From contig NZ_JAAAKZ010000026.1 of the NCBI RefSeq assembly GCF_009905605.1, forward strand, positions 1 to 59,293: DNA of 59,293 nt, read 5' to 3'. Positions 2,513-16,309 of the stretch are shown piece after piece. The stretch is from Runella sp. CRIBMP (GTDB lineage Bacteria > Bacteroidota > Bacteroidia > Cytophagales > Spirosomataceae). The notes under the pieces are model-generated. The model was not told the origin of the DNA, ran no database searches, and saw nothing but the letters and a program-made list of their open reading frames with translations. The translations under genes and the position numbers were made by a program. Each line of letters begins with the position of its first letter. Positions within the stretch are counted from its first letter, which is position 1.

Positions 2513-2590
2513 GGTTGAACTTGGTGGGGTAGGTTTCTTAAAACCGCCCGTGAGGTTGCTCACAACCTTGTTTCTGATGGCGTAAGTAAC

Positions 2591-2736
2591 TTTTGATGCC
2601 GTTGCTGGTGTTCACATCAAAAACTTATACGGCATATCTATTTGAGAATGTACAGCTTTTCAATGTTGGACTTTTGTAGAAAATTACTTGTTAAAGAGTT
2701 AGGCAGGTTTGTTGGTAATAACATTAATAATGGCTA
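2591..2736. repeat. Palindrome-ended dispersed repeat, copy 1 (diverged)
   Basis: The left end TGCCGTTGCTGGTGTTCACA and the right end TTGGTAATAACATTAATAATGGC are diverged versions of the inverted ends seen best in copy 3 (5911-6097). The interior shares ggcatatctatttgagaa and gttggacttttgt with copy 3. It lies just upstream of the gene at 2764. Confidence 0.6.
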
Positions 2737-2763
2737 ATAACCTAATAAAATTACTCTATTTTT

Positions 2764-3447
2764 ATGAACTATAATAATTCAAATTGGTACTTGATGCAAT
2801 ACTCAATAACTCCAACAATAGTTGGGGTTAAAGATGGAATGCCACAGGCAAAAATAGAAAAAGAGGGATTTGCCAAAGAATCAAGTTATGAAAATATAAT
2901 TAACTGGTTCTCATCTTTTGAAAATAGATTTAAAATTCCAATCTATAGAATGTATTTTGAATGTATAAAAATGAAAAAATTTGCTAAATTGACCGATTTT
3001 ATCTCATTAAATTACATTAGTACTTGTGTTCAATTTGCTGTAAGCCCTAAAGCCGTACATACATTAAAGCAATATGAAATAAATTTTGAGTTGTATGATT
3101 GTCAAATTTATTATCGAAATTCAATTATTAATGACTACAAGGTGCTTTATTTACCTTTTCTTGATTTAGATAATTTTGATATAGAGAACTCTGTTTTTTA
3201 TACAGGTTCTTTTATAACGAAAGATAAACAATATTTAAAAATAAAAAATAAAGAAGATTATTTAAGTGTTAAATATGCAAAAAAAGCCGAAAAATTAAAG
3301 TTAGGAAAAATTTTTGATGAAAACACTGACATGTTTAATTCTATTTTCGGAGGCATAATTGTTTCTAAGAGATTAAAAGATGCTATTCTTAAAATAGGTA
3401 TAACAGGAATAGAATTTAACTTACCTGATAAGCCAATGATTGAATAA
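2764..3447 (+). CDS. Imm11/DUF1629-like immunity protein (putative)
   Basis: 227 residues, strongly AT-rich and Lys/Asn/Ile-rich, unlike the neighbouring core genes. No signal peptide or membrane segment is visible. The C-terminal part contains I-V-S-K-R-L-K-D-A-I near 195 followed by G-I-T-G-I-E-F, resembling the 'iVSerlkdal...gitGief' ending of DUF1629/Imm11 proteins, which neutralise secreted toxins. No toxin gene lies beside it, so it would be an orphan immunity gene. The family assignment is from memory of the motif and is tentative. It sits alone between two dispersed repeats, like a cassette, which suggests transfer. Confidence 0.6.
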   Translation: MNYNNSNWYLMQYSITPTIVGVKDGMPQAKIEKEGFAKESSYENIINWFSSFENRFKIPIYRMYFECIKMKKFAKLTDFISLNYISTCVQFAVSPKAVHTLKQYEINFELYDCQIYYRNSIINDYKVLYLPFLDLDNFDIENSVFYTGSFITKDKQYLKIKNKEDYLSVKYAKKAEKLKLGKIFDENTDMFNSIFGGIIVSKRLKDAILKIGITGIEFNLPDKPMIE

Positions 3448-3477
3448 TTTAAAAGGAAAAATTATTTAATTCTGACT

Positions 3478-3606
3478 CTTTTGTTTGTGTTATCATAAAC
3501 AACTTAAAACTACCGAAAATATATCGCTTTAAACGTTAAACTTTTGTAGTGCTTTACCTAATAAATACTGATAGTCAGGTTGTTGGTGATAACACCAACA
3601 ATGGCT
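3478..3606. repeat. Palindrome-ended dispersed repeat, copy 2
   Basis: The right end at 3580-3605 (TTGTTGGTGATAACACCAAC then AATGGC) is an uninterrupted version of the arm that is split in copy 3. The left end at 3481-3503 (TTGTTTGTGTTATCATAAAC) is a diverged inverted partner. The interior shares only short patches with the other copies. Confidence 0.6.
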
Positions 3607-3719
3607 AAAATAAACAAGGTTTATCAGTTTGTCTACGAAGTATTGCGTATATACAGATATTAGCGGTCATTGTAACAAACGACAGATTGCCGACAAAAAA
3701 CCAATTGACATTACAAACT

Positions 3720-4088
3720 ATGACACAAGATGAACAAATAATTGAATGCGAAACAAGACTTTTAGAAGCATTAAAAACTGGTGACATCCAAGTTCTCGAT
3801 GAACTGCTACACGACAATCTAATTTTTAATATTCCAACTGGACAGGCAATTACCAAAGAAATGGATATTGAAAATTATCGTTCGGGTATTATGACAGTTT
3901 ACGATATTTCGACAAGTGACCGAACCATAAAGACAGTTGAAAATGTTTCGACCGTTGTAGTTACTGTTTATTTAAAAGCAAAATATGCTGACCAAATTAT
4001 TGACGGAAAGTTTAGATATTTAAGAGTATGGAAATTGACTAATAATACTTGGAAAGTAATTGCAGGAAGCGGGTTTCAAATTCAATAG
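3720..4088 (+). CDS. SnoaL/NTF2-like (DUF4440) protein
   Basis: 122 residues from the ATG at 3720. An upstream TTG at 3687 would add an unlikely extension. The order of helices and strands fits the NTF2-like fold: an acidic N-terminal helix (DEQIIECETRLLEALKTGD), the motif L-L-H-D-N-L-I-F near 40, then alternating strands ending in V-W-K-L-T-N-N-T-W-K-V-I-A-G-S-G. Members are small hydrolases, isomerases or ligand-binding proteins, and no catalytic residue can be assigned here. AT-rich and single, between a dispersed repeat and an attC-like repeat, so probably a transferred cassette. Confidence 0.75.
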   Translation: MTQDEQIIECETRLLEALKTGDIQVLDELLHDNLIFNIPTGQAITKEMDIENYRSGIMTVYDISTSDRTIKTVENVSTVVVTVYLKAKYADQIIDGKFRYLRVWKLTNNTWKVIAGSGFQIQ

Positions 4089-4113
4089 AATAACCGACAC
4101 GAAATAACAACGA

Positions 4114-4246
4114 ACCGCTAACACGGGTTTTGTGTCATGCGGGGTGTCGTGCTTAAATCCAATTTCAGTTTTCCAATTGGGTGCTGGGTTGACAGTTTTG
4201 TGCTCCGAAATCCCGCCAGAACGCAAAGCCCGAAAACGTTGGTGGT
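4114..4246. repeat. attC-like nested inverted repeat
   Basis: Three nested complementary pairs: ACCGCTAAC (4114) with GTTGGTGGT (4238), CGGGTTTTGTG with CGCAAAGCCCG, and GCGGG with CCCGC. They fold the strand into one long imperfect hairpin. The outer arms end in AAC...GTT, as integron recombination sites do, though they do not fully match the RYYYAAC/GTTRRRY core. It directly follows the SnoaL-like gene. It fills most of the 345-base gap before the serine hydrolase gene. Confidence 0.5.
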
Positions 4247-4341
4247 AATTTTAGTGTAAATCTCAGTAGATCAGTGGAAAACACAACAAACTCCTTTCAA
4301 CACTAAAAACATACCGTTTATCACATTTTTAAATAATGCAA

Positions 4342-4364
4342 GATACTATGCAATGCAAGGTATC
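4342..4364. promoter_or_regulatory. Candidate regulator operator (PadR-like dyad)
   Basis: A 23-base imperfect palindrome with outer arms GATAC/GTATC and centre TGCAATGCA. It ends 11 bases before the -7 element at 4376, so it covers the expected -33 region. The TGCAATGCA-centred dyad resembles operators described for PadR-type repressors. No such regulator is adjacent. Confidence 0.4.
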
Positions 4365-4375
4365 ATGCTATCTTG

Positions 4376-4383
4376 TACCTTTG
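4376..4383 (+). promoter_or_regulatory. -7 element TACCTTTG upstream of the serine hydrolase gene
   Basis: TACCTTTG matches the Bacteroidota -7 consensus TAnnTTTG. It would start transcription near 4390, 45 bases before the ATG at 4434, and argues against the earlier in-frame ATG at 4353. Confidence 0.55.
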
Positions 4384-4433
4384 CTTTTCAACTACATTTA
4401 TCTATTAAAGATTTAAAGCAAAAGTATAACGCA

Positions 4434-5555
4434 ATGAAAAACTTATTTAGCGGTTTGAAAGTAAACATCGCATTCCTATTCCTAACAATAGGAAATATTT
4501 CCTTAGCCCAAACACGAATTCAAAAGATAGACAAACTACTTGATTCACTTATTTTACAGCAGAAATTTAATGGCAACGTTTTAATTGCAGAAAAAGGAGA
4601 AATTATTTACAATCGTAGTTTTGGACTTGCAAACGAAACAACAAAGGAAAAACTGACTCAAAAATCAATTTTTGAGCTAGCTTCTTGTTCAAAGCAGTTT
4701 ACCGCTATGGGTATTATAATTCTTAAAGAAAAAGGCAAGTTAAATTTAGACGATAAAATTTCAAAATACATTCCCGAACTATCAAACTATAAAGGAATAT
4801 CAATAAAAAATCTATTGCACCATACAGGGGGACTTCCGGATTATATGCCACTAATGGATAAAGTTTGGGACAAAACCAAAATAGCAACGAACAAAGATAT
4901 TATTGATTTTTTCAGTAAGTACAACCCGAAAGCTTTGTTTGAACCAAATACTAAGCATGAATATAGTAACACAGGGTATGCTCTACTTGCTACGATAATA
5001 GAAAAAGTATCAGGACAGACTTATGCAGAATTTATGAAGGAACAAGTTTTTAAACCTTTAAAAATGAAAAACTCATTTGTTTACAACAGACGACTCTCAC
5101 CAAAGAAAATTAAAAATTATGCTCTTGGATATTTATTTATAAAAAGTCAAAATAAGTATGTTTTACCGGATGACTATGAGAAAACAAAAATGGTATATTG
5201 GTTAGACGGGGTTGTAGGCGATGGAACTGTAAACTCAAACGTTATTGACCTTTTAAAGTGGGACAGGTCTTTATATACATCAAAATTGGTTTCAGCTGAG
5301 AGTTTAAAAGAAGTTTTTGCAAATGGGTTATTAAATGATGGTTCAAGCGGAAAACATGGATTTGGTTGGAGAATGTTAGACACAAAAGAATTTGGAAGAA
5401 TTGCAAAACATAGTGGAGGTTGGCCAGGATATATGACATACATTGAAAGAAACATGGATAATGACAAGACAATAATAATCCTTCAAAATCATTATAATGT
5501 TACAATGCCAGCAGACGAAATAAGAAACATTTTGTATAACATTGAAAAAAAATAA
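4434..5555 (+). CDS. Beta-lactamase-family (class C-like) serine hydrolase, secreted
   Basis: 373 residues. The chosen start gives a clean signal peptide (MKNLFSGLKVNIAFLFLTIG, cleavage after about SLAQ). Penicillin-binding fold motifs are present: SxxK as S-C-S-K near 86, YxN as Y-S-N in HEYSNTGYALL near 180, and the third motif H-S-G near 325 in KHSGGWPGY. Such proteins are usually peptidases or esterases acting in the periplasm rather than true resistance enzymes. The gene is AT-rich, stands alone, and follows an attC-like repeat and a possible repressor dyad, consistent with acquisition. Confidence 0.85.
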   Translation: MKNLFSGLKVNIAFLFLTIGNISLAQTRIQKIDKLLDSLILQQKFNGNVLIAEKGEIIYNRSFGLANETTKEKLTQKSIFELASCSKQFTAMGIIILKEKGKLNLDDKISKYIPELSNYKGISIKNLLHHTGGLPDYMPLMDKVWDKTKIATNKDIIDFFSKYNPKALFEPNTKHEYSNTGYALLATIIEKVSGQTYAEFMKEQVFKPLKMKNSFVYNRRLSPKKIKNYALGYLFIKSQNKYVLPDDYEKTKMVYWLDGVVGDGTVNSNVIDLLKWDRSLYTSKLVSAESLKEVFANGLLNDGSSGKHGFGWRMLDTKEFGRIAKHSGGWPGYMTYIERNMDNDKTIIILQNHYNVTMPADEIRNILYNIEKK

Positions 5556-5630
5556 ACGATAAATATAAAAAAATGCCACCAATAACTAAGAGCTTGTTTG
5601 GAAATAAATAAGTGATGGGAATCGTCTCAT

Positions 5631-5654
5631 CTTTGTTGTGACCAAACAACAAAG
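5631..5654. other. Small hairpin upstream of the 5672 gene
   Basis: CTTTGTTGT and its exact complement ACAACAAAG are separated by six bases. No T-run follows, so it may be an operator or leader hairpin rather than a terminator. Confidence 0.35.
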
Positions 5655-5671
5655 TGATTTAAATACTTAAA

Positions 5672-6040
5672 ATGAAGCTCATACAACTTTTTAAAGGATA
5701 CGATAATGTCTTGTATATTCATGCAGTATCTCCCTCAAAATTTGGCTTGGTAGAATCTGAGCCATATTATTCAATCAATTTAGATATTGAAATGGAGCAG
5801 AACTTAATATTATCATATATTAATAATGCATTGATAGGTAGCTTAAATGAGAAAATATTTGCTGAAGATGTTAATCCAAGAGAACTTGATAAATTACAGT
5901 CTCCTTTTGATGCCGTTGTTGGTGTTATCACCAACAATTTAAATCTATCTAAAACATTACGCTATCAAACGTTATGGCATATCTATTTGAAAATATATAA
6001 CTTTTTTGATGTTAGGCTTTTGTGTAAAATCGCCTCATAA
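5672..6040 (+). CDS. Hypothetical protein whose 3' end runs into a dispersed repeat
   Basis: 122 residues, not recognised. The first 79 or so residues look like a genuine small soluble protein with AT-rich codons (start MKLIQLFKGYDN). From about residue 80 (DAVVGVITNN) the reading frame is encoded by the dispersed repeat that begins at 5911, so the C-terminal third is not native. The original gene was probably longer and was cut by the repeat, or the repeat supplied its stop. No function is proposed. Confidence 0.45.
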   Translation: MKLIQLFKGYDNVLYIHAVSPSKFGLVESEPYYSINLDIEMEQNLILSYINNALIGSLNEKIFAEDVNPRELDKLQSPFDAVVGVITNNLNLSKTLRYQTLWHIYLKIYNFFDVRLLCKIAS

Positions 6041-6097
6041 AGAGTGAGAAGTGGGTTGTTGCGGGGCCGCCCGGGCGGTGATAACACCAACAATGGC
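5911..6097. repeat. Palindrome-ended MITE-like repeat, copy 3
   Basis: The left end (5911-5937) and right end (6056-6097) are inverted copies of the same 26-base sequence, TGCC(G/A)TTGTTGGTGTTATC and its continuation. Each end is itself palindromic around TTGGTG(T/A)TATCACCAA. The element would be 171 bp without the 16-bp GC-rich insertion in its right arm. The structure suggests a non-autonomous element. No transposase with matching ends was seen in the window. Confidence 0.65.
6062..6077. repeat. 16-bp GC-rich insertion in a repeat arm
   Basis: CGGGGCCGCCCGGGCG interrupts the right arm of repeat copy 3 between TTGTTG and GTGATAACACC. The intact arm is seen in copy 2 (3580-3605), so exactly 16 bases were added (placement ambiguous by one base). 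No target-site duplication is visible. Confidence 0.7.
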
Positions 6098-6124
6098 TAA
6101 AATTTTGAGTGGCAATAATTCTCA

Positions 6125-7996
6125 TCAATAAGTTTGCAATTGATTTTTCCACATTTGAAGAAATAGCAGTCGTTGAAATTTCCTGATTTTGTTAAAATCA
6201 AAGTTTTGATGATTCATATTTTGCAGGCCTTTTTTGATGAGGAGCAATTTTTCTTTTGTAACAGCGTCAAAGTCATTTTCCTGCATACACGCGTTGGTCA
6301 TGTCCGCAAGGATGAGCCAAATGGTTTTAGCAAAAAGTACCTTCGATTGCCTTAACCTGATTTTTTCGGGCAAAATCCCTGTCATTGCCCGTCGGAAATG
6401 ATACCGCGTCATGGCTTGAGGGCTTATTCTCATTCTGCCGGGCACCATCAGACTCAATTCTATAAAATCTTTATCAAGAAAAGGATGCGCATATTCAATC
6501 CCAAAAGCCGCTCCGGCCAGATTAAGTATTTCGTTGGTATCAATGATTCCGGCACAGCAAATACGGCTGAAATGCTCCCGTATATCGCCCGTAAGCGTTT
6601 CTGGAACATAGTTTGTCAACTGCGCCGGGGCCTTCGTTCCCGTTCCAAAAATCATTTTTTTTACTTTGCCAAAACCGAAAGAGGCCATTATCCGCATTAA
6701 ATCAACGAATGAAACGGTTTGATGATGCACAACTGCAACAAGCAATTGCCCTACCGCTGAAAGTCCGCCTTCTGCGTAATTTTTATGAAAAGCTCGTTTG
6801 ACAAGGTACACTCTTCTGACGCGTGTGGTTTTACGGTCACCTCCGATGGTCTCTTCAAATGCTTTGAATTTTAAGTTAAAAATAAGCGAAAAAAGATAAA
6901 ATAAGCCCGTATCCACCACGGTATCGCCTTCATGCCCCGTCAGAATGGTCGTCACTCCCTTCTTTTTGAATTCTATCAGCTCCGGAAGGATTTTGGCACA
7001 CATTGGTATGGTGCTCAAATCCGGTCGGTCAATGTGCATTTGAACCTGATCTATGCTTGCTCGCGAAACAACACTTCGCTCTATCTGATGATGATTTTGG
7101 AGGTTGTTTTGGACAACTTCCATGGTATATTCTCTCTCATCGGCTTCATCAACTTTGGGATAAAAATGCACAGAGAACAGGTTTTCTTTGGATAAATATC
7201 TTTCGGCCACTTTATACACCGAGCTTGAGTCGAGCCCTCCGCTTACCTGTACGCCCGTGAGCGGTTGTAATCGCCTGCTTACCGCTCTTTCAAACCTTTT
7301 GCGGTATTCTTCAATAATCAAAGATTCGGTGTTCAAATGACTGAACTGTTCAGGGTCTATTTTCCAATAGAAGGTTTCTTTGGATTGGTGCAAATCCATG
7401 TCTATCTCTAAAACAGTAGCCGGAAGTACCGAAAAAATATCCTGAAAAAAAGTCGTTTTAGAATAACCCCTGTGGTCGCTGGGCCATTGAAGATATTCTT
7501 CAAGCTTTTCTTCATTGAGTTCCGAAGAAACTTCATTGAGCGAAAGCAGGGCTTTGGGTTCTGAGGCAAAAGCCATAAACTCCCCCTCCCGGAAGCTGTA
7601 ATAAAGCGGACGTACGCCTAAATGGTCTCTGATGAGGAACACTTTTTGCCGAATTTCATCCACAATAAAGATGGAATAATCTCCCGCCAAACAGTCGACA
7701 AAATTGATACTTAATTTTGAATAAGCCCTGAAAATCAACTCATTCTCACTCATTTTCAGGGTCGCTGTAAGCCCGATATTTTCTAAGATTTCGGCTTGAT
7801 TATCAATCCGGGCGTCAGAGATGACCGAAACGCCATCCTGATAATAAAGTGTAGCTCCCCGGCAACTACTAAGCTGTCCTATACTAAAGACATCATTGGT
7901 TTTGAAAGTAGCTTGCCCGCGGTGAGACAAACAACGGCTCATGCGCTCCAATTCATTGGACTTGATGCCTCCAACGATGCCAATGATGCCTTTCAT
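6125..7996 (-). CDS. Asparagine-synthetase-like macrolactam (lasso) cyclase
   Basis: 623 residues. Residues 1-160 form a class II glutaminase-like domain (RDHLGVRPLYY near 125), and the synthetase domain follows with the pyrophosphate loop SGGLDSS near 250. The C-terminal part has R-Y-H-F-R-R-A-M-T-G-I-L-P as in lasso cyclases. The catalytic Cys2 of glutamine-dependent synthetases (M-C-G-I) is replaced by lysine (M-K-G-I-I-G), so it should not use glutamine. It is expected to adenylate an Asp side chain of a peptide and close a lactam ring. Its ATG follows the YcaO stop directly (TGAATG), giving a precursor-YcaO-cyclase operon. Confidence 0.85.
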   Translation of the reverse strand: MKGIIGIVGGIKSNELERMSRCLSHRGQATFKTNDVFSIGQLSSCRGATLYYQDGVSVISDARIDNQAEILENIGLTATLKMSENELIFRAYSKLSINFVDCLAGDYSIFIVDEIRQKVFLIRDHLGVRPLYYSFREGEFMAFASEPKALLSLNEVSSELNEEKLEEYLQWPSDHRGYSKTTFFQDIFSVLPATVLEIDMDLHQSKETFYWKIDPEQFSHLNTESLIIEEYRKRFERAVSRRLQPLTGVQVSGGLDSSSVYKVAERYLSKENLFSVHFYPKVDEADEREYTMEVVQNNLQNHHQIERSVVSRASIDQVQMHIDRPDLSTIPMCAKILPELIEFKKKGVTTILTGHEGDTVVDTGLFYLFSLIFNLKFKAFEETIGGDRKTTRVRRVYLVKRAFHKNYAEGGLSAVGQLLVAVVHHQTVSFVDLMRIMASFGFGKVKKMIFGTGTKAPAQLTNYVPETLTGDIREHFSRICCAGIIDTNEILNLAGAAFGIEYAHPFLDKDFIELSLMVPGRMRISPQAMTRYHFRRAMTGILPEKIRLRQSKVLFAKTIWLILADMTNACMQENDFDAVTKEKLLLIKKGLQNMNHQNFDFNKIRKFQRLLFLQMWKNQLQTY

Positions 7997-9994
7997 TCAG
8001 AACAGATTAAAAGTCCTGAGAGATTCTTCGGCAGGAACGTAGCCGTAGAGGTCACTGACCACATCATACAATCTGCCAGGCGCAAAGCGAGTATCCAAAT
8101 CCCTCATGCCGGGTACAATTGCCTTCACCACGGGCAATAAAACATCGCTCCGGGATAGGTCTTTATAGTATATATTCAGTCCTCTTTTTCTTATCTCCGT
8201 TTCTACAATTTTTAGCTCTTCGGTGATATCCAAGTTATCTTTTTCAAAAGACCAAACGGGTTTTTGCGGGGTATGATGATTCAATGCAGTGGCTATGTCC
8301 TGCATTTGTCCGTCGTCTAAACGGGTCTTTTTCGACAAATGACGAACATAGAGCTGATTGAGCTCGCCAAAAGCCTTTTCGCAGGCTTTCTCAAAACTGA
8401 TGTTTGAAGCACAGGCCAATACATAGGTGCCATCGAGATAGGCTGACACTACCGCGACCGTCGGGATGGAAATATCTTGGGTAATGTCAAATAAATATAC
8501 TTTTTTGCCCAATCGCTGGTGCTCCGCAAGGGCCAAACTCACTATCTCCAAATGGTCAATATACGCAAGATCAATGCCCTGGCACGGCAATCTATTGTAC
8601 CACCATATCGCGTAGGCATCTCTTTCAATCAGTTCATAGAGCGCATACAGCTTTGCCATATCAAGGGTAGAACCTGCCGCAGTACCGTTGGTGATCCATT
8701 TAAAAAACGTTTCAGAGGCGGTATCTTCAGCGGGCCGTCCCAGATACAGCAGGAAAGTAGGTATGCATCGGGGTGTGTCATCGACGCTGTCCGTTACATT
8801 ACTCCACGCAATGGGGATATTTTCATCAAATTCCACTAACAATTCGTCCGCATGACTGCGGGCATTTTTCTGGCGGTATTGCGTCGGGCTGTAAAGAAGT
8901 ATCTCGTTGGGGTGAATGGCCCTGTGCTTCAAGTCGTTGTAAGCGGCAATGATATACTCATCTTCATGTTCACGAAAAACCTGTGCGTATCTTTCCAACG
9001 TCTCACAAAAAGCTTTGGCTTCGGCCTCTTCTTTAGTTAAGCCATTGCCGCTTGCCCTTGTTCTTGAAAAGAATATTTCAGCATTTATTTGATTAGACCT
9101 GAAGATCACCCCTCCAGTACTTACCCACCCTCCCAGGGGTGTTTGTTGCGATGTGAGCTTATCAACCAACCCCAAAGGTGCTTCAAGGTGAAACGAAAGT
9201 TGCTCAAAAACAGCCTGAATATTAGCCGGCTTTTGGTGGGCATCAAGTATTTCGTACGTTCCTTTGGCAAATGAGCGAAAGAGCGGAGGCGATAGATAGG
9301 CGCGTTCGATGGTCAATCTTTCGTGGTCGAAAATCAAAAGGGTATTTTGGGATTCATTGGAATCAATAAAGGTAGGCAGGTAATCCAAAACCATCACCAA
9401 TGAAGCCGTAGACAAACAATCGTTCAGCGAAAGAGGATAGTTGCGCAAAGTCAGCAATTGACTGAAAAAGACTCTTTTGATTCTATGAAGAAAACAGAAA
9501 AAAGCCCCCGTTTCTGAAGTATCAAAAACGGGGAACAGTTTCAATTCATTGGCAAAAGCCCAAACAACGGTAAACTGTTTACTCTTGATTTTTGCAAATT
9601 CAACACTTTGTAAATGATATACATCCGAAACAACAAAAACCGTCAATGCATGCTGGTCAGCGGTCATCTGAACCCTTTTTAATTCAAGCTTTGCCATTTT
9701 CTCTCTGAGAGATGTGTCTTCGGGAAATTCGATGGCAATCGTTAAAAAAGCGTTGTCAATGATAATTTTATCCTGCACAAACCCATAAAAAGCGCCCAGT
9801 ATTTCGGGCAGTGAGTACGTATTTTGATAGGCTTTTCTTAACCCGTCGAGGGTGACTTCTTCACTACCGAAAAAATCACATAAAATACGATACTGTACAG
9901 AATTGCTGTATGTTTTTTGGGTATGACCATCATACAGTACAAAGGACTTGTTGTTGAATCCCAATAAATAAAAAGAGGAATTCCATTTCATCAT
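7997..9994 (-). CDS. YcaO-domain RiPP protein with fused N-terminal leader-binding-like region
   Basis: 665 residues from the ATG at 9994, which overlaps the precursor stop by one base (TGATG). An upstream TTG at 10000 is less likely. The last 380 residues are a YcaO domain: SGNGLTKEEAEAKAFCETLE near 325 and G-T-A-A-G-S-T-L-D-M-A-K followed by YELIERDA near 440 are its ATP-site signatures. YcaO enzymes phosphorylate backbone amides to make azolines, thioamides or amidines. The first 290 residues resemble the degenerate E1/ThiF-like, winged-helix partner that binds leaders in azoline systems, but this is a weak fold guess. The C-terminus (SLRTFNLF) lacks the usual PxPxP ending of azoline-forming members. 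Confidence 0.8.
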   Translation of the reverse strand: MMKWNSSFYLLGFNNKSFVLYDGHTQKTYSNSVQYRILCDFFGSEEVTLDGLRKAYQNTYSLPEILGAFYGFVQDKIIIDNAFLTIAIEFPEDTSLREKMAKLELKRVQMTADQHALTVFVVSDVYHLQSVEFAKIKSKQFTVVWAFANELKLFPVFDTSETGAFFCFLHRIKRVFFSQLLTLRNYPLSLNDCLSTASLVMVLDYLPTFIDSNESQNTLLIFDHERLTIERAYLSPPLFRSFAKGTYEILDAHQKPANIQAVFEQLSFHLEAPLGLVDKLTSQQTPLGGWVSTGGVIFRSNQINAEIFFSRTRASGNGLTKEEAEAKAFCETLERYAQVFREHEDEYIIAAYNDLKHRAIHPNEILLYSPTQYRQKNARSHADELLVEFDENIPIAWSNVTDSVDDTPRCIPTFLLYLGRPAEDTASETFFKWITNGTAAGSTLDMAKLYALYELIERDAYAIWWYNRLPCQGIDLAYIDHLEIVSLALAEHQRLGKKVYLFDITQDISIPTVAVVSAYLDGTYVLACASNISFEKACEKAFGELNQLYVRHLSKKTRLDDGQMQDIATALNHHTPQKPVWSFEKDNLDITEELKIVETEIRKRGLNIYYKDLSRSDVLLPVVKAIVPGMRDLDTRFAPGRLYDVVSDLYGYVPAEESLRTFNLF

Positions 9995-10131
9995 CAGCAA
10001 ACTGATAAACCTGTCATTCCATCGGCATCGCCACTGCCAGTGGCTGAAGTTAAATTTTTGACGTTGCCTAATTTTTTCAACTTAGGAGTTTGGTACTTCT
10101 TTTTTGTGTTTAAGGTTTTGCGGGTTTTCAT
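9994..10131 (-). CDS. Lasso-type RiPP precursor peptide
   Basis: 45 residues, found by reading upstream of the YcaO gene. The leader contains Y13, P16, L18, G22 and T28, which match the lasso leader pattern YxxPxLxxxGxxxxxT at every spacing. If T28 is at position -2, the core is ATGSGDADGMTGLSVC, with Ala1 as ring amine and Asp8 as acid partner, the standard geometry for an 8-residue lactam. The core also offers Thr2, Ser4, Thr11, Ser14 and Cys16 to a cyclodehydratase. The N-terminus is Lys-rich. The stop overlaps the YcaO start by one base (TGATG), so translation is coupled. Cleavage and ring position are inferred. Confidence 0.85.
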   Translation of the reverse strand: MKTRKTLNTKKKYQTPKLKKLGNVKNLTSATGSGDADGMTGLSVC

Positions 10132-10173
10132 AACAAAAAATATACTTATTGGGATATTAACTAACTAAAACCG

Positions 10174-10205
10174 TAAATATAGGTATATTCTCTCTTATAA
10201 ACCAT
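10174..10205 (-). promoter_or_regulatory. Weak candidate promoter of the RiPP operon
   Basis: On the minus strand TATATTTA (10174-10181) approximates the -7 TAnnTTTG element about 43 bases upstream of the precursor ATG. No clean -33 TTTG is at the expected distance. The rest of 10132-10287 is AT-rich with no other gene seen. Confidence 0.3.
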
Positions 10206-10287
10206 AAGAAGTGTACAACTTGTTTTTGATAAAATTATCTATAAATGATTTACGAAAGACAATAGGCAACTTTATAGGCTATAACAA

Positions 10288-10318
10288 CAAAAAACCCGTC
10301 AGATATTCTGACGGGCTC
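10288..10318 (-). terminator. Rho-independent terminator
   Basis: CCCGTCAGA/TCTGACGGG hairpin with a three-base loop, followed on the minus strand by a run of T. It ends the secreted-protein gene at 10385-10987 and separates it from the RiPP operon. Confidence 0.8.
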
Positions 10319-10384
10319 TCGCAAAATCGAATTGTCAAGATGGAGTGGTTATAGTAATTTGTTGATGAATGAAGACATTATGAG

Positions 10385-10987
10385 TTATTTCACATTAACG
10401 AATTGCTTGAAAGATTTATCGGCTACTACAAATTCAAAAGAATACTCGCCGCTTGGCAAATGTCCCAAATTGAAACGTGATGCGGTAGATAAATAACCTT
10501 TGTAAACAACTTCTCCCGCACGGTCAGCAATGATTACTTCCATGTCGGCTACGTTCTTCACCACGGTTGATACTTCAAAACGGTTGATTGCAATCATTTC
10601 AACTTTAGGAGCCAACGACTCTTTGTAGCTGTTTTCGTTGATTTCAATGTTACCGTTTGAGATCGAAAGTTGCTGAGAAGACCAGAAATTGTTGTTGAAG
10701 CAATTCAAGGTATACTCACCGCTTGGCAAAGCGTTCAGGTTAAACTGAGTCGCTACGTTTTCGCCACCTTTGATCTCGCCTTCGTATATCAGTACTCCTT
10801 CTTTGTCTCTTAACTCTACATCCAGAATTCCAACGTTAGGTTGGTTGACGCGAACTTCTACTTTCTTAGCGTCGCGTTTTACGATTTTCACGTCTTTTGT
10901 GAAAAGGTGACTCTCGGCCATTGCGTTTCCTGTGCTTACAAAAAACATGGCGGCAAATATTGACAGAAGCATTGTGTTCTTTTTCAT
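10385..10987 (-). CDS. Secreted protein with two LPSGEY-type beta-sandwich repeats
   Basis: 200 residues from the ATG at 10987, which gives a signal peptide (MKKNTMLLSIFAAMFFVSTG, cleavage near NAMA). A longer upstream frame would bury it. Two similar halves each end in a strand motif, LNALPSGEYTLNCF and LGHLPSGEYSFEF, the pattern of secretion-system C-terminal domains and DUF3244-like proteins in Bacteroidota, where the motif terminates an Ig-like fold. It is likely periplasmic or outer-surface with a structural or adhesive role. A poor -7 match (CACCTTTG on the minus strand, 11048-11055) lies about 60 bases upstream. Confidence 0.75.
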   Translation of the reverse strand: MKKNTMLLSIFAAMFFVSTGNAMAESHLFTKDVKIVKRDAKKVEVRVNQPNVGILDVELRDKEGVLIYEGEIKGGENVATQFNLNALPSGEYTLNCFNNNFWSSQQLSISNGNIEINENSYKESLAPKVEMIAINRFEVSTVVKNVADMEVIIADRAGEVVYKGYLSTASRFNLGHLPSGEYSFEFVVADKSFKQFVNVK

Positions 10988-11310
10988 TGTTTTATTGTTT
11001 TTGTACCATCTTGTCTCACCAGCTGTGATGACTTCGTTTTGACAATGCAAAGGTGTGAGGTTTTAAATTACAAAAAAATAGGGCAAAAACCCCCTCTTGT
11101 TAAATTCATATACCCAATTTCAACCTTTTCTCAGAATAGTACAAATCTTAAAATAATACAACCAGAAAATTCAAACCTCGCTGTGTTCCGTCCAATTATT
11201 TTTTTTGCAAAAATGAAAAGTTCTTTAAATAGTACAACGAAAATAGAAAAAGTACAACTATTTAAAGTCCTGTTCACTAACCAAAATGTGCAAAAACGTC
11301 ATTTTGACAA
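10988..11310. other. AT-rich intergenic region
   Basis: 323 bases between the secreted protein gene and the DinB-like gene. It holds the possible minus-strand -7 element at 11048-11055 and A-rich tracts with several copies of AGTACAA-type words. No convincing gene, hairpin or RNA was seen. Confidence 0.5.
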
Positions 11311-11847
11311 TTAAAATTGAGGCGCCAAGTTCACCCTACTCACCATAATTTGGTGATGGTGACGGATATGATAGGCCGTAAAAAGGAGCATCTCCCGCAC
11401 CGTAAGGGGTCCCATCAAAGGGTGCGGAATCACGTGTTCTTCCAATGCTTGCTCATCCCACTCGGAAAGGTGCGCAATGAGGGAGAGATAATCCTGCTTA
11501 AATTCACTCGCCAGCGCCACGGCGTCGGGCGTGGGAGTCAGGGGCGCAAACGCCCCTGCGGCTCCTTGGCGGCCGTTCAATGCCGCATGATAGGCCCCAA
11601 CAACCTCCTCGTAGGAGCGCGAAGGATGAGCGGCAGGCCCCCATTTTTCTAGAAAATAGGTTTTGGGGCGACCAAAAAGGCGGTTCAGGGGCTGAACCGA
11701 TTGCGATAAATGCTGCACATTCTCGGCCGCCGACCACACATTTTCGGCAGGCTTAAAATAAAAAGCCTCAGCAGGGCTGGCATAGGCAAAAGCGACAACT
11801 TCGTTTACGCCTTCGTTCAGGAAATCAATCAAGGTAGTTTTGTTCAT
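11311..11847 (-). CDS. DinB-like (DUF664) putative metal-dependent protein
   Basis: 178 residues with the four-helix DinB pattern. The likely metal-binding histidines are in VQHLSQS near residue 46 and in the C-terminal helix AYHIRHHHQIM near 163, the usual layout of the family. Members include thiol transferases and stress-induced proteins of unknown substrate. It begins five bases after the alpha/beta hydrolase gene and is the third gene of a TetR-hydrolase-DinB operon, so it is probably under that repressor. Confidence 0.8.
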   Translation of the reverse strand: MNKTTLIDFLNEGVNEVVAFAYASPAEAFYFKPAENVWSAAENVQHLSQSVQPLNRLFGRPKTYFLEKWGPAAHPSRSYEEVVGAYHAALNGRQGAAGAFAPLTPTPDAVALASEFKQDYLSLIAHLSEWDEQALEEHVIPHPLMGPLTVREMLLFTAYHIRHHHQIMVSRVNLAPQF

Positions 11848-11852
11848 GGCCG

Positions 11853-12761
11853 TTAAAGAGTAGTTTTTTTGAATGCGGGATTGTTATAGGTAAGTGTCGT
11901 GGAGACCATTGCTTCCAAATCTGCCACGACTTTGGTCCAAAATTGCGTTTTTAGTTTTCGGGAAAACAACCCGAAATGACCGATTTGCTTCAACCCAAAA
12001 TCAGCGGGACGAATGGCTTCGGTCATGATGTCAGCTTTTCGAAAATGGCGAAGCAGAGCAGGCACTGTTACGGCGTTGGCAATCGGGTCGTCGGTGGTCC
12101 AATAGGCCTTGATGGGTAAAGCAAGTTTGTCGTAAGCATTATAAGGAATACTTTTGTCCAGAAAATCAAACAGATAGTTTTCGGAATTGCACCATTCACG
12201 CCATTCCAACATCAACGCTCCTGGCAAATCTTCCATAATTTTCATTTTTTTGACTGGGACATACCCCAGAAAAGGAACCGTCAACGCGGGCAAAATATTA
12301 AAAAAGAAATACGACTTGAGGCGATACGGAAAAGTATGACGCCACCAAGTGCCCGTCGAAGCCGTAATCATGACCATTCCTTTCAGAACGTGGTGGTTGG
12401 GCATCAGGCCTACAAGCTGCCCCCCAATGCTGTGGCCTATCATCAATTTGGGCCAGTCGGGATACCTTGACTCCAGAAAATCAAGTACGGCCCGCATGTC
12501 AATCGCCCAGTCTTGCATCGTAATGGCGGCAAAATCTTCTTTATCAGACGGCCTCGAATCTCCCATGCCACGGTATTCCCAGAGGCAAACGATGAAGCCG
12601 TTTTCGGCCAAGTACCGCGCAAAATTTGTATAAAATCCTTTGCGCATCCCCGTTCCGATGTTAAACTGCACCACGGCTTTGGGCGCGCCGTGGTATTCAT
12701 ACAAGATGCCCGCCAGTTCAAATCCATCGGGCGTAGGGATGTTTATTTTGAGCTCTTTCAT
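11853..12761 (-). CDS. Alpha/beta hydrolase
   Basis: 302 residues from the ATG at 12761, four bases after the TetR stop. A longer frame to 12833 would overlap tetR. The nucleophile elbow G-H-S-I-G-G lies near residue 109, preceded by the EYRGMGDS loop typical of serine hydrolases, with a late acid in TTDDPIAN and a catalytic His candidate in IGHFGLF near 275. It is likely a cytoplasmic esterase or lipase. Linkage to a TetR repressor with its own operator suggests induction by a small hydrophobic or toxic compound. Confidence 0.85.
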   Translation of the reverse strand: MKELKINIPTPDGFELAGILYEYHGAPKAVVQFNIGTGMRKGFYTNFARYLAENGFIVCLWEYRGMGDSRPSDKEDFAAITMQDWAIDMRAVLDFLESRYPDWPKLMIGHSIGGQLVGLMPNHHVLKGMVMITASTGTWWRHTFPYRLKSYFFFNILPALTVPFLGYVPVKKMKIMEDLPGALMLEWREWCNSENYLFDFLDKSIPYNAYDKLALPIKAYWTTDDPIANAVTVPALLRHFRKADIMTEAIRPADFGLKQIGHFGLFSRKLKTQFWTKVVADLEAMVSTTLTYNNPAFKKTTL

Positions 12762-12765
12762 TCGT

Positions 12766-13356
12766 TTATTGTTTTTCAGTAACGTTATTGCTTTCTGCCG
12801 CATCAAAACGAGCCATGGCGCGCTCCAGCACATCTTGTAAATAATGGGAGCTGTCGGTCAGCTTCACCATTACCCAAGCACCTTCGTATTCGACCATGGC
12901 CTGTTCGGCCATTTGTCGCGCTTTTTTGGCGTCATATTTATATGAGTATAGGTGCGCGAGCGCATCTAAGTATTCTTCAAAAAAAGTACGCATAGCGGGT
13001 CGGAATTCATCCGTAACGAGTGCCGTTTCGATGGCCATGTTTCCCATCAAGCACCCGCCTTCCGTGCTTGATACCACCCGGATTTGCTTGGCGAGCATTT
13101 TTTCGAGGCGCTCGCGCGGCAAAAGCGTTTCATCGTAGGCAATCACAAAGATTTTTGCTTTAAAATAAGAATGAACGGCCCCGAGCACTTCTTTCATCAA
13201 GGCTTCTTTTCCGCTGAAATAGTGGTAAAAACTTCCTTTCAACAAACCGCAAGCTTCCGCCAAATCGGCCATGCTGGTGCGGTGATAGCCCCTCTTTTTA
13301 AAGAGCAAAAGCGCTTGGTTGACGACTTCCTCTTTGGTTACTTTTTGAATCGGCAT
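12766..13356 (-). CDS. TetR family transcriptional repressor
   Basis: 196 residues. The N-terminal helix-turn-helix (residues 10-55) has the family signature G-Y-H-R-T-S-M-A-D-L-A-E-A followed by G-S-F-Y-H-Y-F. The C-terminal ligand domain contains GGCLMGNMA, seen in the TetR_C subgroup related to AcrR/NemR-type sensors. A perfect 12-bp dyad lies 47 bases upstream of its start, so it probably represses itself and the hydrolase and DinB genes that follow. Confidence 0.9.
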   Translation of the reverse strand: MPIQKVTKEEVVNQALLLFKKRGYHRTSMADLAEACGLLKGSFYHYFSGKEALMKEVLGAVHSYFKAKIFVIAYDETLLPRERLEKMLAKQIRVVSSTEGGCLMGNMAIETALVTDEFRPAMRTFFEEYLDALAHLYSYKYDAKKARQMAEQAMVEYEGAWVMVKLTDSSHYLQDVLERAMARFDAAESNNVTEKQ

Positions 13357-13402
13357 CGTAAGGTGTATTCAGTTTCGAAATACAAAGTTGGAGATAATTT
13401 TA

Positions 13403-13430
13403 ATTTTACCAAACAAACGTTTGGTAAAAT
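13403..13430. promoter_or_regulatory. TetR operator
   Basis: A perfect inverted repeat ATTTTACCAAAC / GTTTGGTAAAAT with a four-base spacer AAAC. Its position between the divergent tetR and amidohydrolase genes makes it the likely binding site of the adjacent repressor. Confidence 0.75.
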
Positions 13431-13516
13431 ATTTTCTTCAAACTTTCTTCTTCCATTTCGGTTCAGGATAATGAGTCCTTGAGTACCTTTGCTTACTTAA
13501 CCCCCTCTTTACGCAC

Positions 13517-14833
13517 TTGAAACAATTACTCGCATTTATTGGATTTTTATTCTTCATTCAGGGGAATGGTTTCACCCAAAAGTTGTATCTGTTAAAACCC
13601 GACCGTGTTTTTGACGGAACGGCCATCTACGAAGGTTGGAGCGTACTGGTGCAAGGCGAAAAAATCATCGCCGTGGGCGAACCCAAAAACGTAGAAGAGG
13701 CCGCTAAAAATTTACAAACGTCGGGCAAATCTGCCCCCCAAATCATTGATTTGAAAGGATGTACCTTACTGCCAGGCTTTATCGAAGGACATTCACATTT
13801 ATTTTTACATCCTTATAATGAAACCACTTGGGACGACCAAGTGCTGAAAGAGGCGCGTTCGTTGCGCACCGTGCGGGCTACCCTACACGCTAAGCAAACG
13901 CTGATGGCAGGTTTTACCACCGTTCGAGATTTGGGTACGGAAGGTGCCGAATTTGACGATGTGGGACTCAAACAGGCTATCAATCAGGGAATCATCCCCG
14001 GTCCACGCATGGTTATTGCCACCAAAGCGCTCATTGCTACGGGCAGCTACGCCCCAAAAGGATTCAGCCCCGACATTGAAGTACCCCAGGGTGCCGAAGA
14101 AGCCGACGGCCACGACCGCCTCATCCAAGCCGTGCGTCGGCAAATCGGGAAAGGTGCCGATGTGGTCAAAATTTACGCTGATTATCGTTGGGGGTTAATG
14201 GGCGACGCCCGCCCTACTTTTTTGGTAGACGAAATAAAACTTATTGTCGAAACCGCCCGCAGCAGCGGCCGTCCCACCATCGCCCACGCGGGCAGTACGG
14301 AAGGAATGCGGCGGGCTATTTTGGGCGGCTGCGAAACCCTCGAACACGGCGACGCAGGCACGCCTGAAATTTTTTCGCTCATGCACGAGAAAGGCGTGGC
14401 TTTGTGCCCTACCTTAGCAGCAGGCGATGCCGTCAGCCAATACCGAGGCTGGAAAAAAGGCATTGAACCAGAGCCTGAACGCATCAAAAACAAACGGATT
14501 ACCTTTAAGCAGGCACTTGACGCGGGCGTAACGATTTGTTTCGGCGGCGATGTGGGGGTGTTTTCTCACGGCGACAACGCCCGCGAAATGGAAATGATGG
14601 TCGACTATGGCATGAAGCCCCTTGACGTACTGCGCTCGGCCACGTCCGTCAATGCAAACGTATTTCATTTGAGCCAATTAGGAAACGTCAAAACCAACTT
14701 TTGGGCCGATCTAGTTGCGGTAGAAGGCCGTCCAGAAGAGCACATCAGCGATGTTAGAAAGATAAAATTTGTGATGAAAAATGGAGAGATTTTTCGCAAT
14801 GAACCCAGTCTTAGCCCGAAGTCTGCTAAATAA
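13517..14833 (+). CDS. Secreted amidohydrolase (imidazolonepropionase/prolidase-like)
   Basis: 438 residues starting at a TTG codon at 13517. There is no in-frame ATG that keeps the signal peptide (KQLLAFIGFLFFIQG, cleavage after FTQ), so the TTG is preferred. The metal-binding H-S-H lies near residue 91 in EGHSHLFLH, with later ligands at IAHAGS and EHGD and a catalytic Asp in GGDVGVFSHGDN. These identify the metal-dependent amidohydrolase superfamily. Related secreted enzymes cleave dipeptides or cyclic imides. It is divergent from the TetR operon and could share the operator region, but that is not shown. Confidence 0.85.
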   Translation: MKQLLAFIGFLFFIQGNGFTQKLYLLKPDRVFDGTAIYEGWSVLVQGEKIIAVGEPKNVEEAAKNLQTSGKSAPQIIDLKGCTLLPGFIEGHSHLFLHPYNETTWDDQVLKEARSLRTVRATLHAKQTLMAGFTTVRDLGTEGAEFDDVGLKQAINQGIIPGPRMVIATKALIATGSYAPKGFSPDIEVPQGAEEADGHDRLIQAVRRQIGKGADVVKIYADYRWGLMGDARPTFLVDEIKLIVETARSSGRPTIAHAGSTEGMRRAILGGCETLEHGDAGTPEIFSLMHEKGVALCPTLAAGDAVSQYRGWKKGIEPEPERIKNKRITFKQALDAGVTICFGGDVGVFSHGDNAREMEMMVDYGMKPLDVLRSATSVNANVFHLSQLGNVKTNFWADLVAVEGRPEEHISDVRKIKFVMKNGEIFRNEPSLSPKSAK

Positions 14834-14976
14834 TAGTGGCCCCAAATGGGTTAAAAAACCTTTAAGTAAATCTTTTGTTTTCGAGCTATTTAGCCCTCGT
14901 CTATTTCTTTTTAACAAGAAATTTTGAAATAATTACCCTATAAAGTTTCATAGAAAAAAGTTTTTTATGAAAATTG

Positions 14977-14984
14977 TACCTTTA
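14977..14984 (+). promoter_or_regulatory. -7 element of the citrate synthase gene
   Basis: TACCTTTA, one base off TAnnTTTG, 38 bases before the citrate synthase ATG and preceded by a T-rich stretch. Upstream (14850-14960) nothing else was recognised. Confidence 0.45.
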
Positions 14985-15022
14985 TCCCAAATCCATCGAA
15001 TATTTTAACCTACCACCACTGT

Positions 15023-16309
15023 ATGTCAGATAAAGCCCAACTCATAGTAGACGGAAAAACGTACGAATTTCCGACCACCCAAGGAACTGAGCAAGAAAAA
15101 GCAATTGATATTAATTCATTAAGGGATTCAACGGGCTATATTACCATTGATAGTGGATACAAAAACACCGGAGCCACCAAAAGTGCCATCACTTTTTTGG
15201 ACGGTGAAGAAGGCATTTTGCGCTATCGTGGCTATTCAATTGAAGAATTGGCCGAAAAAGCTACTTTTTTAGAAGTGGCCTATTTGTTGATTTACGGTGA
15301 ATTACCGACCCAATCTCAATACGAAAACTTCGAGCACGAAATCCGGACGCATACGCTAGTCAACGAAGACATGCGCAAGATTTTTGAAGGCTTTCCTGTC
15401 AATGCGCACCCGATGGGCGTTTTGTCTTCATTGGTAAGTGCCATGAGCGCTTTTTATCCTGATTCTTATGACGATAAGGCCCCCGACAGCACCGAAACGC
15501 ACATCATTCGATTGATGGCAAAATTGCCAACGATTGCTACTTGGTCGTTCAAAAAATCACAAGGTCATCCCGTCAATTACCCTAAAAACGACTTGGATTA
15601 TTGCTCAAACTTCCTTCACATGATGTTTGCGTTGCCAGTTGAAGAATACAAAGTAGACCCTGTGGTTTCTAAGGCATTAAATAAATTGTTGATTCTTCAC
15701 GCTGACCACGAGCAAAACTGCTCGACCTCGACCGTCCGTTTGGTAGGATCGTCAAAAGCCAACATTTATTCTTCCATTTCGGCGGGTATCTGCGCCCTAT
15801 GGGGACCACTCCACGGCGGCGCCAACCAAGAAGTAATCGAAATGCTGGAAGACATCAAAGCCGACGGTGGCGATGTAGCCAAATACGTAGACATGGCTAA
15901 AAATGCCAAAACTAGCGGTTTCCGTTTGTTTGGTTTTGGTCACCGTGTTTATAAGAATTTTGACCCACGGGCCAAAATCATCAAAAAAGCAGCCGACGAT
16001 GTATTGGCAAAATTAGGCGTTAATGACCCCGTTTTGGAAATTGCCAAAGGATTAGAGGAAGCCGCATTGCACGACGAGTACTTCGTAAGCCGTCGTTTGT
16101 ATCCAAACGTTGACTTTTATTCAGGAATCATTTACCGGGCTCTCGGTATTCCCACCAATATGTTCACGGTGATGTTTGCCTTAGGGCGTCTGCCGGGCTG
16201 GATTGCACAATGGAAAGAAATGCGCGAAAACAAAGAACCCATCGGTCGTCCGCGTCAGATTTACACTGGAGCAACATTGCGGTCTTTTGTTCCGATGAAT
16301 GAAAGATAA
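15023..16309 (+). CDS. gltA: Citrate synthase
   Basis: 428 residues, the length of hexameric type II citrate synthases. It condenses oxaloacetate and acetyl-CoA at the entry of the TCA cycle in the cytoplasm. The catalytic residues are visible: His in L-H-A-D-H-E-Q-N, His in PLHGGANQEV, and the signature GFGHRVYKNFDPRA with its Asp. The N-terminal region (AQLIVDGKTYEFP) is the beta-rich extension of type II enzymes. It is monocistronic between a promoter at 14977 and a strong terminator. Confidence 0.97.
   Translation: MSDKAQLIVDGKTYEFPTTQGTEQEKAIDINSLRDSTGYITIDSGYKNTGATKSAITFLDGEEGILRYRGYSIEELAEKATFLEVAYLLIYGELPTQSQYENFEHEIRTHTLVNEDMRKIFEGFPVNAHPMGVLSSLVSAMSAFYPDSYDDKAPDSTETHIIRLMAKLPTIATWSFKKSQGHPVNYPKNDLDYCSNFLHMMFALPVEEYKVDPVVSKALNKLLILHADHEQNCSTSTVRLVGSSKANIYSSISAGICALWGPLHGGANQEVIEMLEDIKADGGDVAKYVDMAKNAKTSGFRLFGFGHRVYKNFDPRAKIIKKAADDVLAKLGVNDPVLEIAKGLEEAALHDEYFVSRRLYPNVDFYSGIIYRALGIPTNMFTVMFALGRLPGWIAQWKEMRENKEPIGRPRQIYTGATLRSFVPMNER

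Follow-up and report, generated by a model that had tools for sequence, protein, structure and literature searches.

Lasso peptides are ribosomally synthesised and post-translationally modified peptides (RiPPs), and their pathways comprise a precursor (A), a RiPP recognition element (RRE) protein that binds the leader (B1), a protease (B2) and a cyclase (C). In cyanobactins and their kin, fused cyclodehydratases of the LynD/TruD/MusD type contain an RRE, an E1-like and a YcaO domain in one chain. Here, we describe a three-gene cassette in Runella sp. CRIBMP (Spirosomataceae) that resembles both of these systems. The cassette is located on contig C19 (NZ_JAAAKZ010000026.1), which was analysed over its entire length of 59,293 bases and is called the window in the following; the source genome comprises 7.13 Mb in 55 contigs. 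We favour, with modest confidence, the interpretation that the cassette encodes a lasso-peptide pathway into which an azoline-type modifying enzyme is built.

The cassette shares several characteristics with lasso pathways: the leader has a Thr at position -2, the first core residue is small, the eighth core residue is an Asp (Asp8), and the cyclase falls into a lasso-type clade. Other lasso loci in these genomes likewise have a leader of this kind together with a GS...D core. Unlike in lasso pathways, no B1 or B2 is present in the cluster, a fused RRE-YcaO protein lies between A and C, and the core ends in a lone Cys. This fused protein resembles the LynD/TruD/MusD-type cyclodehydratases in its three domains, in a full-length fold match and in its retained acidic residues. 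However, it is 110 residues shorter than LynD (665 vs 775), it has lost the CxxC, the GKG lysine and the NPxP tail, and its partner is a lasso-type cyclase. If our interpretation is right, the cassette YcaO would also resemble the daptide enzyme DapY in targeting the extreme C-terminal end of a RiPP (PMC12338566; here and below, papers are cited from the parts of their text that were available). DapY, however, needs prior decarboxylation and amination of its substrate and makes an imidazoline; furthermore, unlike in the daptide system, no other gene is common to cassettes of different genera.

Extra modifications on a lasso scaffold have been reviewed (PMC9266682, PMC8498205, PMC13352647), and in this respect the cassette would join known cases of lasso tailoring. 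The word YcaO is absent from the main text of the three reviews, and their single mention of a thiazoline (PMC8498205) refers to engineered hybrids with other RiPP classes. Among titles and abstract openings, where subscription journals are thinly covered, we found no report of an azoline-bearing lasso peptide or of YcaO tailoring in a lasso cluster. The novelty of the cassette would thus lie in the combination of a lasso-type pathway with an extra LynD-type heterocyclase that misses some hallmarks of the LynD group, a hybrid that we did not find reported.

The three genes are encoded on the minus strand in the order precursor, RRE-YcaO protein and lasso-cyclase-like protein. All frames that a first-pass annotation of the sequence had proposed are present, and they overlap or abut as it had described: the stop codon of the precursor shares bases with the YcaO start (TGATG), and the cyclase start directly follows the YcaO stop (TGAATG). 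The YcaO protein was counted from the overlapping ATG at 9994, which is its first in-frame ATG; the mechanical open reading frame (ORF) begins with a TTG at 10000. The cassette has the following features:

9994..10131, minus strand: precursor peptide gene, 45 amino acids (aa), with a lasso-type leader and the core ATGSGDADGMTGLSVC (based on the frame, leader-model matches and homologues)
10048..10095, minus strand: leader recognition motif Y13-x-x-P16-x-L18-x3-G22-x5-T28, with T at -2 (in 6/6 cassette precursors)
10021..10023, minus strand: codon of Asp37, i.e. core Asp8, the predicted ring acceptor (invariant in 6/6)
9997..9999, minus strand: codon of Cys45, i.e. core Cys16, the last residue and predicted YcaO target (based on the comparison of Cys with YcaO presence)
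7997..9994, minus strand: fused RRE/E1-like/YcaO protein, 665 aa
9749..9994, minus strand: predicted RRE (leader-binding) fold, residues 1-82
9260..9748, minus strand: E1/ThiF-like domain, residues 83-245, metal-site cysteines mostly gone (matches to MccB, MoeB, ThiF and TruD; CxxC deleted)
8042..9238, minus strand: YcaO catalytic domain, residues 253-651
8000..8020, minus strand: C-terminal tail LRTFNLF, replacing LNPxPxF
6125..7996, minus strand: lasso-cyclase-like protein (asparagine-synthetase fold), 623 aa, with Lys2 replacing the glutaminase Cys (based on PF00733, PF13537, NF033535 and the tree)
7223..7243, minus strand: ATP-pyrophosphatase loop SGGLDSS of the cyclase, residues 252-258

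Of 222 genomes in the family, that of the window included, six from three genera contain a match to the YcaO protein with an E-value of at most 1e-60. In five of these six cassettes, a whole cyclase gene directly follows YcaO or overlaps it by one base, and in the sixth (L092) the contig stops inside the cyclase. Two further YcaO/cyclase pairs are suggested by protein records whose contigs have the same length (P0004/P0122 and P0006/P0126). In each of the six genomes, YcaO is directly preceded by a homologous small frame, so that the search for homologous loci and the precursor alignment, which had been proposed as a check, turned out in favour of the precursor. The window precursor fits the lasso leader pattern YxxPxLxxxGxxxxxT at all positions, as had been claimed, and the pattern is present in all six cassette precursors. 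When aligned, these are invariant in the Met-Lys start, in the leader Tyr, Pro, Lys, Leu, Gly and Thr, and in one core Asp. If the Thr is taken as position -2, this Asp sits at core position 8; core position 1 is small in all six (A, G or S), and the cores are 16 or 17 residues long. The previously predicted ring geometry from Ala1 to Asp8 is thus supported by the conservation of Asp8, while core position 6 varies. All six precursors match the lasso-leader models NF033528 and NF033521 of NCBI at E-values up to 1, and that of L092 is the only one to pass a cut-off (NF033521). Relative to the window, the copies from the other genera (L089, L090 and L091) have synonymous changes in 5 to 9 of 16 codons of the leader motif.

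A profile search with the precursor against 5.8 billion proteins returned nine proteins, three of them already known. Among the others, for which we have the peptide sequences alone, P0243 and P0245 are Cys-ended copies that keep Asp8, whereas P0246-P0248 are YxxP-type precursors without Cys. Because of the upstream homologue in 6/6 genomes, the six invariant leader positions beyond the first two residues together with Asp8, and the further Cys-ended copies, we conclude from the alignments that the small frame is more than chance. That it is a chance ORF, or that the cassette is decaying without a product, appears exceedingly improbable to us. The cassette is accessory, and in one of its six copies the YcaO frame is broken and the Cys is missing, as decay would have it; however, gene order, leader and Asp8 are conserved across three genera, and the YcaO gene differs between the window and Runella rosea, likewise a member of the Spirosomataceae, by 57.5 synonymous versus 26.5 non-synonymous differences.

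The third protein of the cassette matches PF00733 and PF13537, which relates it to lasso cyclases and asparagine synthetases. We inspected its position in a tree of 46 sequences that was rooted at the midpoint and in which the long branches flagged by the program lie elsewhere. The cassette cyclases (nine sequences, with the context known for five) form one clade (100/100) within the lasso-type group, which agrees with the earlier statement that the cyclase fits a lasso pathway. This clade is nested in a group of 33 lasso-type cyclases (100/99), and a Nostoc lasso cyclase lies outside that group. Its sister clade consists of P0130-P0134, which have 35-36% identity to the window cyclase and may indicate that other bacteria have a related cassette. 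The ATP loop SGGLDSS (SGGVDSS in P0128) and the late Arg-x-x-Lys are retained in the cassette cyclases. Residue 2, which we take to be the position of the glutaminase cysteine of asparagine synthetases, is a Lys in P0126 and at the five loci (the remaining three rows of the clade are truncated at their start); in neighbouring lasso cyclases it is Ser or another residue. Loss of the glutaminase Cys would fit an enzyme that draws on an amine within its substrate, as lasso cyclases do, and the use of free ammonia is also possible.

The second protein matches PF02624 (E 5e-71 in the Pfam scan), and its structure is predicted with confidence to be that of a heterocyclase of the LynD/TruD type that begins with an RRE. 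The AlphaFold2 model was built on 92 sequences; with 11 sequences, only the N-terminal 240 residues were good (pLDDT 51 overall). In the structure comparison, the model matches LynD over its full length and has the architecture of RRE, E1-like and YcaO domain. Its N-terminal region, previously described as leader-binding-like, adopts an RRE fold that resembles TbiB1. The acidic residues E331, E334, E454, E457 and E544 are identical across all 92 aligned YcaOs, and presumably they form the ATP/Mg site.

To which residue the YcaO might be directed is indicated by a comparison of cores with and without a linked YcaO. As a comparison set, we used lasso precursors beside cyclases from eight genomes of the family, found by a leader motif that is blind to the core. 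The 21 YcaO-less cyclase loci yielded 17 precursors, with L157, L159, L164 and L165 giving none by the motif search; the two cyclase loci of the incomplete genome G170 (C449 and C169) are left out of this comparison. Five of the six YcaO-linked cores hold exactly one Cys, which is always the last residue, whereas Cys occurs in none of the 17 cores beside YcaO-less lasso cyclases (Fisher p 1.8e-4; with near copies collapsed, 4/5 vs 0/11, p 0.0027; the sequences are related, so that both values are guides only). The exception is the copy in a Runella metagenome-assembled genome (L001, the same as L092), where the YcaO frame is broken near codon 35, the cyclase frame is open up to the contig end, and the same precursor has a second record from a longer contig (P0244). 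This genome is 83% complete and split into 790 contigs, and thus the broken frame could be an assembly error. The joint loss of the Cys and of the YcaO frame is as expected if the enzyme serves the cysteine. Cys16, which the first-pass annotation had named as an example of a YcaO target, is therefore the best candidate by its link with YcaO. From these sequences, the C-terminal Cys is the most likely site of YcaO action, and the product there is plausibly a thiazoline. We also considered Ser4 and the GS motif at core positions 3-5 as a specific target and rejected them: the motif is present in 14/14 YxxP-type lasso precursors without YcaO and is thus a lasso feature of the family.

We then turn to the removal of the leader. 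As had been noted for the window, B1 and B2 are absent from the cluster, with no profile match within 9-25 kb around the cassette at the six loci; however, the absence does not extend to the genomes, where B1 is present in 6/6 and B2 in 5/6, including all five well-assembled ones. Neither is the local absence special to the cassette, because B2 occurs elsewhere in the genomes and at nine of the 21 YcaO-less cyclase loci, which are precursor-cyclase pairs, the surrounding 14-17 kb are likewise free of B1 and B2 (L103, L104, L158, L160-L163, L166 and L167). The suggestion that the YcaO protein stands in the place of B1 and B2 was thus not borne out. In such a two-enzyme lasso pathway, the RRE would bind the leader and ATP-dependent amide activation would hydrolyse the bond between leader and core. 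The precedent is MusD, which hydrolyses a C-terminal bond (PMC10885120), and the window genome is indeed without a YxxP-type B2. Nevertheless, we regard this pathway as quite unlikely, as at least one B2 is found in each of the five well-assembled cassette genomes, the YcaO-less loci show the same absence, and the terminal Cys would be left unexplained.

Counting cyclases as NF033535 matches at E 1e-40 and B2 as matches over the Pfam cut-off, we found cyclase/B2 numbers of 4/1 (G000), 4/2 (G164), 3/0 (G170), 2/2 (G161), 3/1 (G065), 6/2 (G049), 2/1 (G098), 1/1 (G198) and 1/1 (G208), so that cyclases exceed B2 genes in six of nine genomes. The five well-assembled cassette genomes have two to six cyclase genes yet one or two B2 genes each, and leader removal in trans thus seems likelier than a replacement of B1/B2 by the YcaO. 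In three cassette genomes (Dyadobacter and Arundinibacter; L168, L169 and L170), B1 and B2 occur together with an HprK-like kinase, and there is neither a cyclase nor a recognisable precursor in the 14-15 kb around; this suggests a shared lasso maturation set that acts in trans. From the excess of cyclases over B2, these cyclase-free B1/B2 loci and the 9/21 pairs without B1/B2 nearby, the bacteria appear to run a split lasso system, of which the YcaO cassette would be one precursor-cyclase pair. A split lasso operon, that of the cebulassopins, has reportedly been described elsewhere. The window genome contains four further lasso cyclase loci with precursors, on C5, C13, C14 and C22 (L103, L161, L093 and L102), for which only two B1 and one B2 were found. 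In the C22 cluster (L102 14412-15633), B1 and the HprK-like kinase are ~50 bp apart with no B2 between them, whereas a B2 sits between these two genes in R. rosea (L156), where it is of the YxxP type, and in G161 (L105).

Under our interpretation of a lasso pathway with a built-in azoline-type enzyme, the RRE of the YcaO protein would bind the precursor through its YxxPxL leader. The YcaO would activate the amide before the terminal Cys with ATP and most likely close a C-terminal thiazoline. Ala1 would be freed by a leader protease, for which B1/B2 from another place in the genome are the most likely candidates. As judged by homology, the cassette cyclase would adenylate Asp8 and join it to the amine of Ala1, and the modified tail would be threaded through the resulting ring of eight residues. 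This scheme is built on the three-gene unit, the lasso leader with Asp8, the placement of the cyclase among the lasso type, the RRE-E1-YcaO protein with its acids and the link between YcaO and terminal Cys; from these we infer the order of events, the identity of the thiazoline and the threading. In a bolder variant, which we consider distinctly improbable, one bifunctional RRE-YcaO enzyme replaces B1, B2 and the heterocyclase: it would bind the leader, convert the free-carboxylate Cys to a thiazoline by means of its altered tail and cleave off the leader in an ATP-dependent manner, so that YcaO and cyclase would make up a complete lasso pathway.

Several observations weigh against a lasso pathway with a built-in azoline-type enzyme. 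All three proteins score below curated cut-offs: the cyclase reaches 260.8 bits on NF033535 (cut-off 525), the window precursor 27.3 bits on NF033528 (cut-off 33, E 2.6e-6) and 17.4 on NF033521 (cut-off 19), and the YcaO protein 203.1 bits on TIGR03604 (cut-off 219.25). The RRE match is common to RREs of many RiPP classes and hence is no proof that the leader of the cassette is bound. Between the window and R. rosea, the precursor has five non-synonymous and no synonymous differences, and thus no purifying selection is visible at this short distance. P0249, a 56-aa peptide with a YxxP leader that is a distant match of the precursor profile (E 1.3e-3), carries its two cysteines internally and does not end in Cys. 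Furthermore, the single B2 of the window genome is located in a WxxP-type cluster on C14; leader removal in this genome would depend on either the C14 B2 or something else, YcaO included.

The cyclase score, far below its cut-off, would also suit an asparagine-synthetase-like enzyme that amidates or nitrilates a carboxylate, as do PesC and TsrC, so that no lasso is formed. We assume that PesC and TsrC keep the N-terminal glutaminase Cys, which is lost in the cassette cyclases. About 300 uncharacterised asparagine-synthetase-like enzymes are found near RiPP genes outside lasso pathways, and PesC accepts ammonia in place of glutamine, which would make the lost Cys compatible with amidation (PMC13060819). 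The supplementary network of such RiPP enzymes in that paper may include the type found in the cassette. However, the cyclase is placed within lasso cyclases in the tree, the lasso leader and Asp8 are invariant, and the low score is shared by the other lasso-type cyclases of the family, none of which reaches the NF033535 cut-off (0/9 genomes). We thus consider an enzyme of this kind very improbable.

Further points against our interpretation are found in the YcaO itself. The NPxP tail motif is missing; among 83 non-cassette relatives, 80 have an NP near the end and 42 a P.P in the tail, and the cassette tail LRTFNLF does not count as Pro-rich. The GKG lysine, otherwise 98% conserved, is an Asn in all nine rows of the cassette group (the window and P0001-P0008), and many other alignment columns are changed in this group as well. 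P0008 (34% identity over 95% of the query) appears intermediate, with the Asn in the GKG loop yet the tail NP kept. Because of the deviations in the tail and in the GKG loop, the chemistry of the YcaO may be other than ordinary azoline formation. The enzyme might, for instance, make an amidine, a thioamide or an oxazoline at another bond; the terminal Cys would then have a role in recognition or structure. The lost metal-site cysteines would be in line with such a change, and YcaO enzymes that make amidines and thioamides are known (PMC10352776, PMC12338566). We regard this as possible but doubtful, since no TfuA partner was found among the eight window proteins scanned with Pfam and the terminal Cys is the only YcaO-specific core feature that we found. 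There is also a difficulty with the terminal position: before DapY, no characterised YcaO modified a C-terminal residue, and DapY acts only after decarboxylation (PMC12338566, a 2025 preprint). The same preprint suggests that the terminal carboxylate of the YcaO repels a free C-terminal carboxylate of the substrate. It is suggestive that the cassette YcaOs are changed in exactly the tail that is held to do so.

The genes that flank the cassette are common only within Runella, and none is shared between genera. The flanks at 196-2512 and 10320-15180 have counterparts (82% and 81% identical) that lie 179 bp apart in L184 of the cassette-free genome G165. Thus, the cassette belongs to an accessory segment:

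2513..10319, no strand: accessory segment carrying the cassette, missing at the same place in the relative G165 (based on the flank comparison with L184)

An order-level sample contained the cassette in 4 of 390 genomes, all of which had already been found in the family search. With P0008 as a query, 395 genomes of the phylum gave one match, the window's own protein. With P0130, 395 genomes of the class gave four matches at E 1e-40, all of them lasso-type cyclases of 30-40% identity; three come from the window's genome, the cassette cyclase among them. In plasmid records, only distant TOMM proteins were detected (10 records at E 1e-30; the best with 83% coverage and 27% identity). Among the best 80 of 111 loci in a scan of genome contigs, L001 and L002 are the only cassette relatives, and the remaining 78 have 28-36% identity that is mostly restricted to the YcaO domain.

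Beside the cassette, repeats of ~150-200 nt with GGTGATAACACC palindromes are located at 2590-2740, 3469-3611 and 5904-6103 of the window. The short ORFs between them comprise a weak Imm11 match below the cut-off, a DUF4440, a serine-hydrolase fold (PF00144) and one ORF without assignment. The same palindromic repeats separate other ORFs in R. rosea (L088 12700-14000). To us, the array resembles a gene-cassette array with attC-like sites.

If our interpretation is true, the cassette would make a lasso peptide with a backbone heterocycle, and two RiPP chemistries would be fixed in one compact natural cassette. Its YcaO would act directly on a C-terminal residue without prior decarboxylation and would show a matching change in its own tail, so that the proposed catalytic role of the YcaO C-terminus would become directly testable. 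Furthermore, the surrounding genomes suggest that several precursor-cyclase pairs share one protease set.

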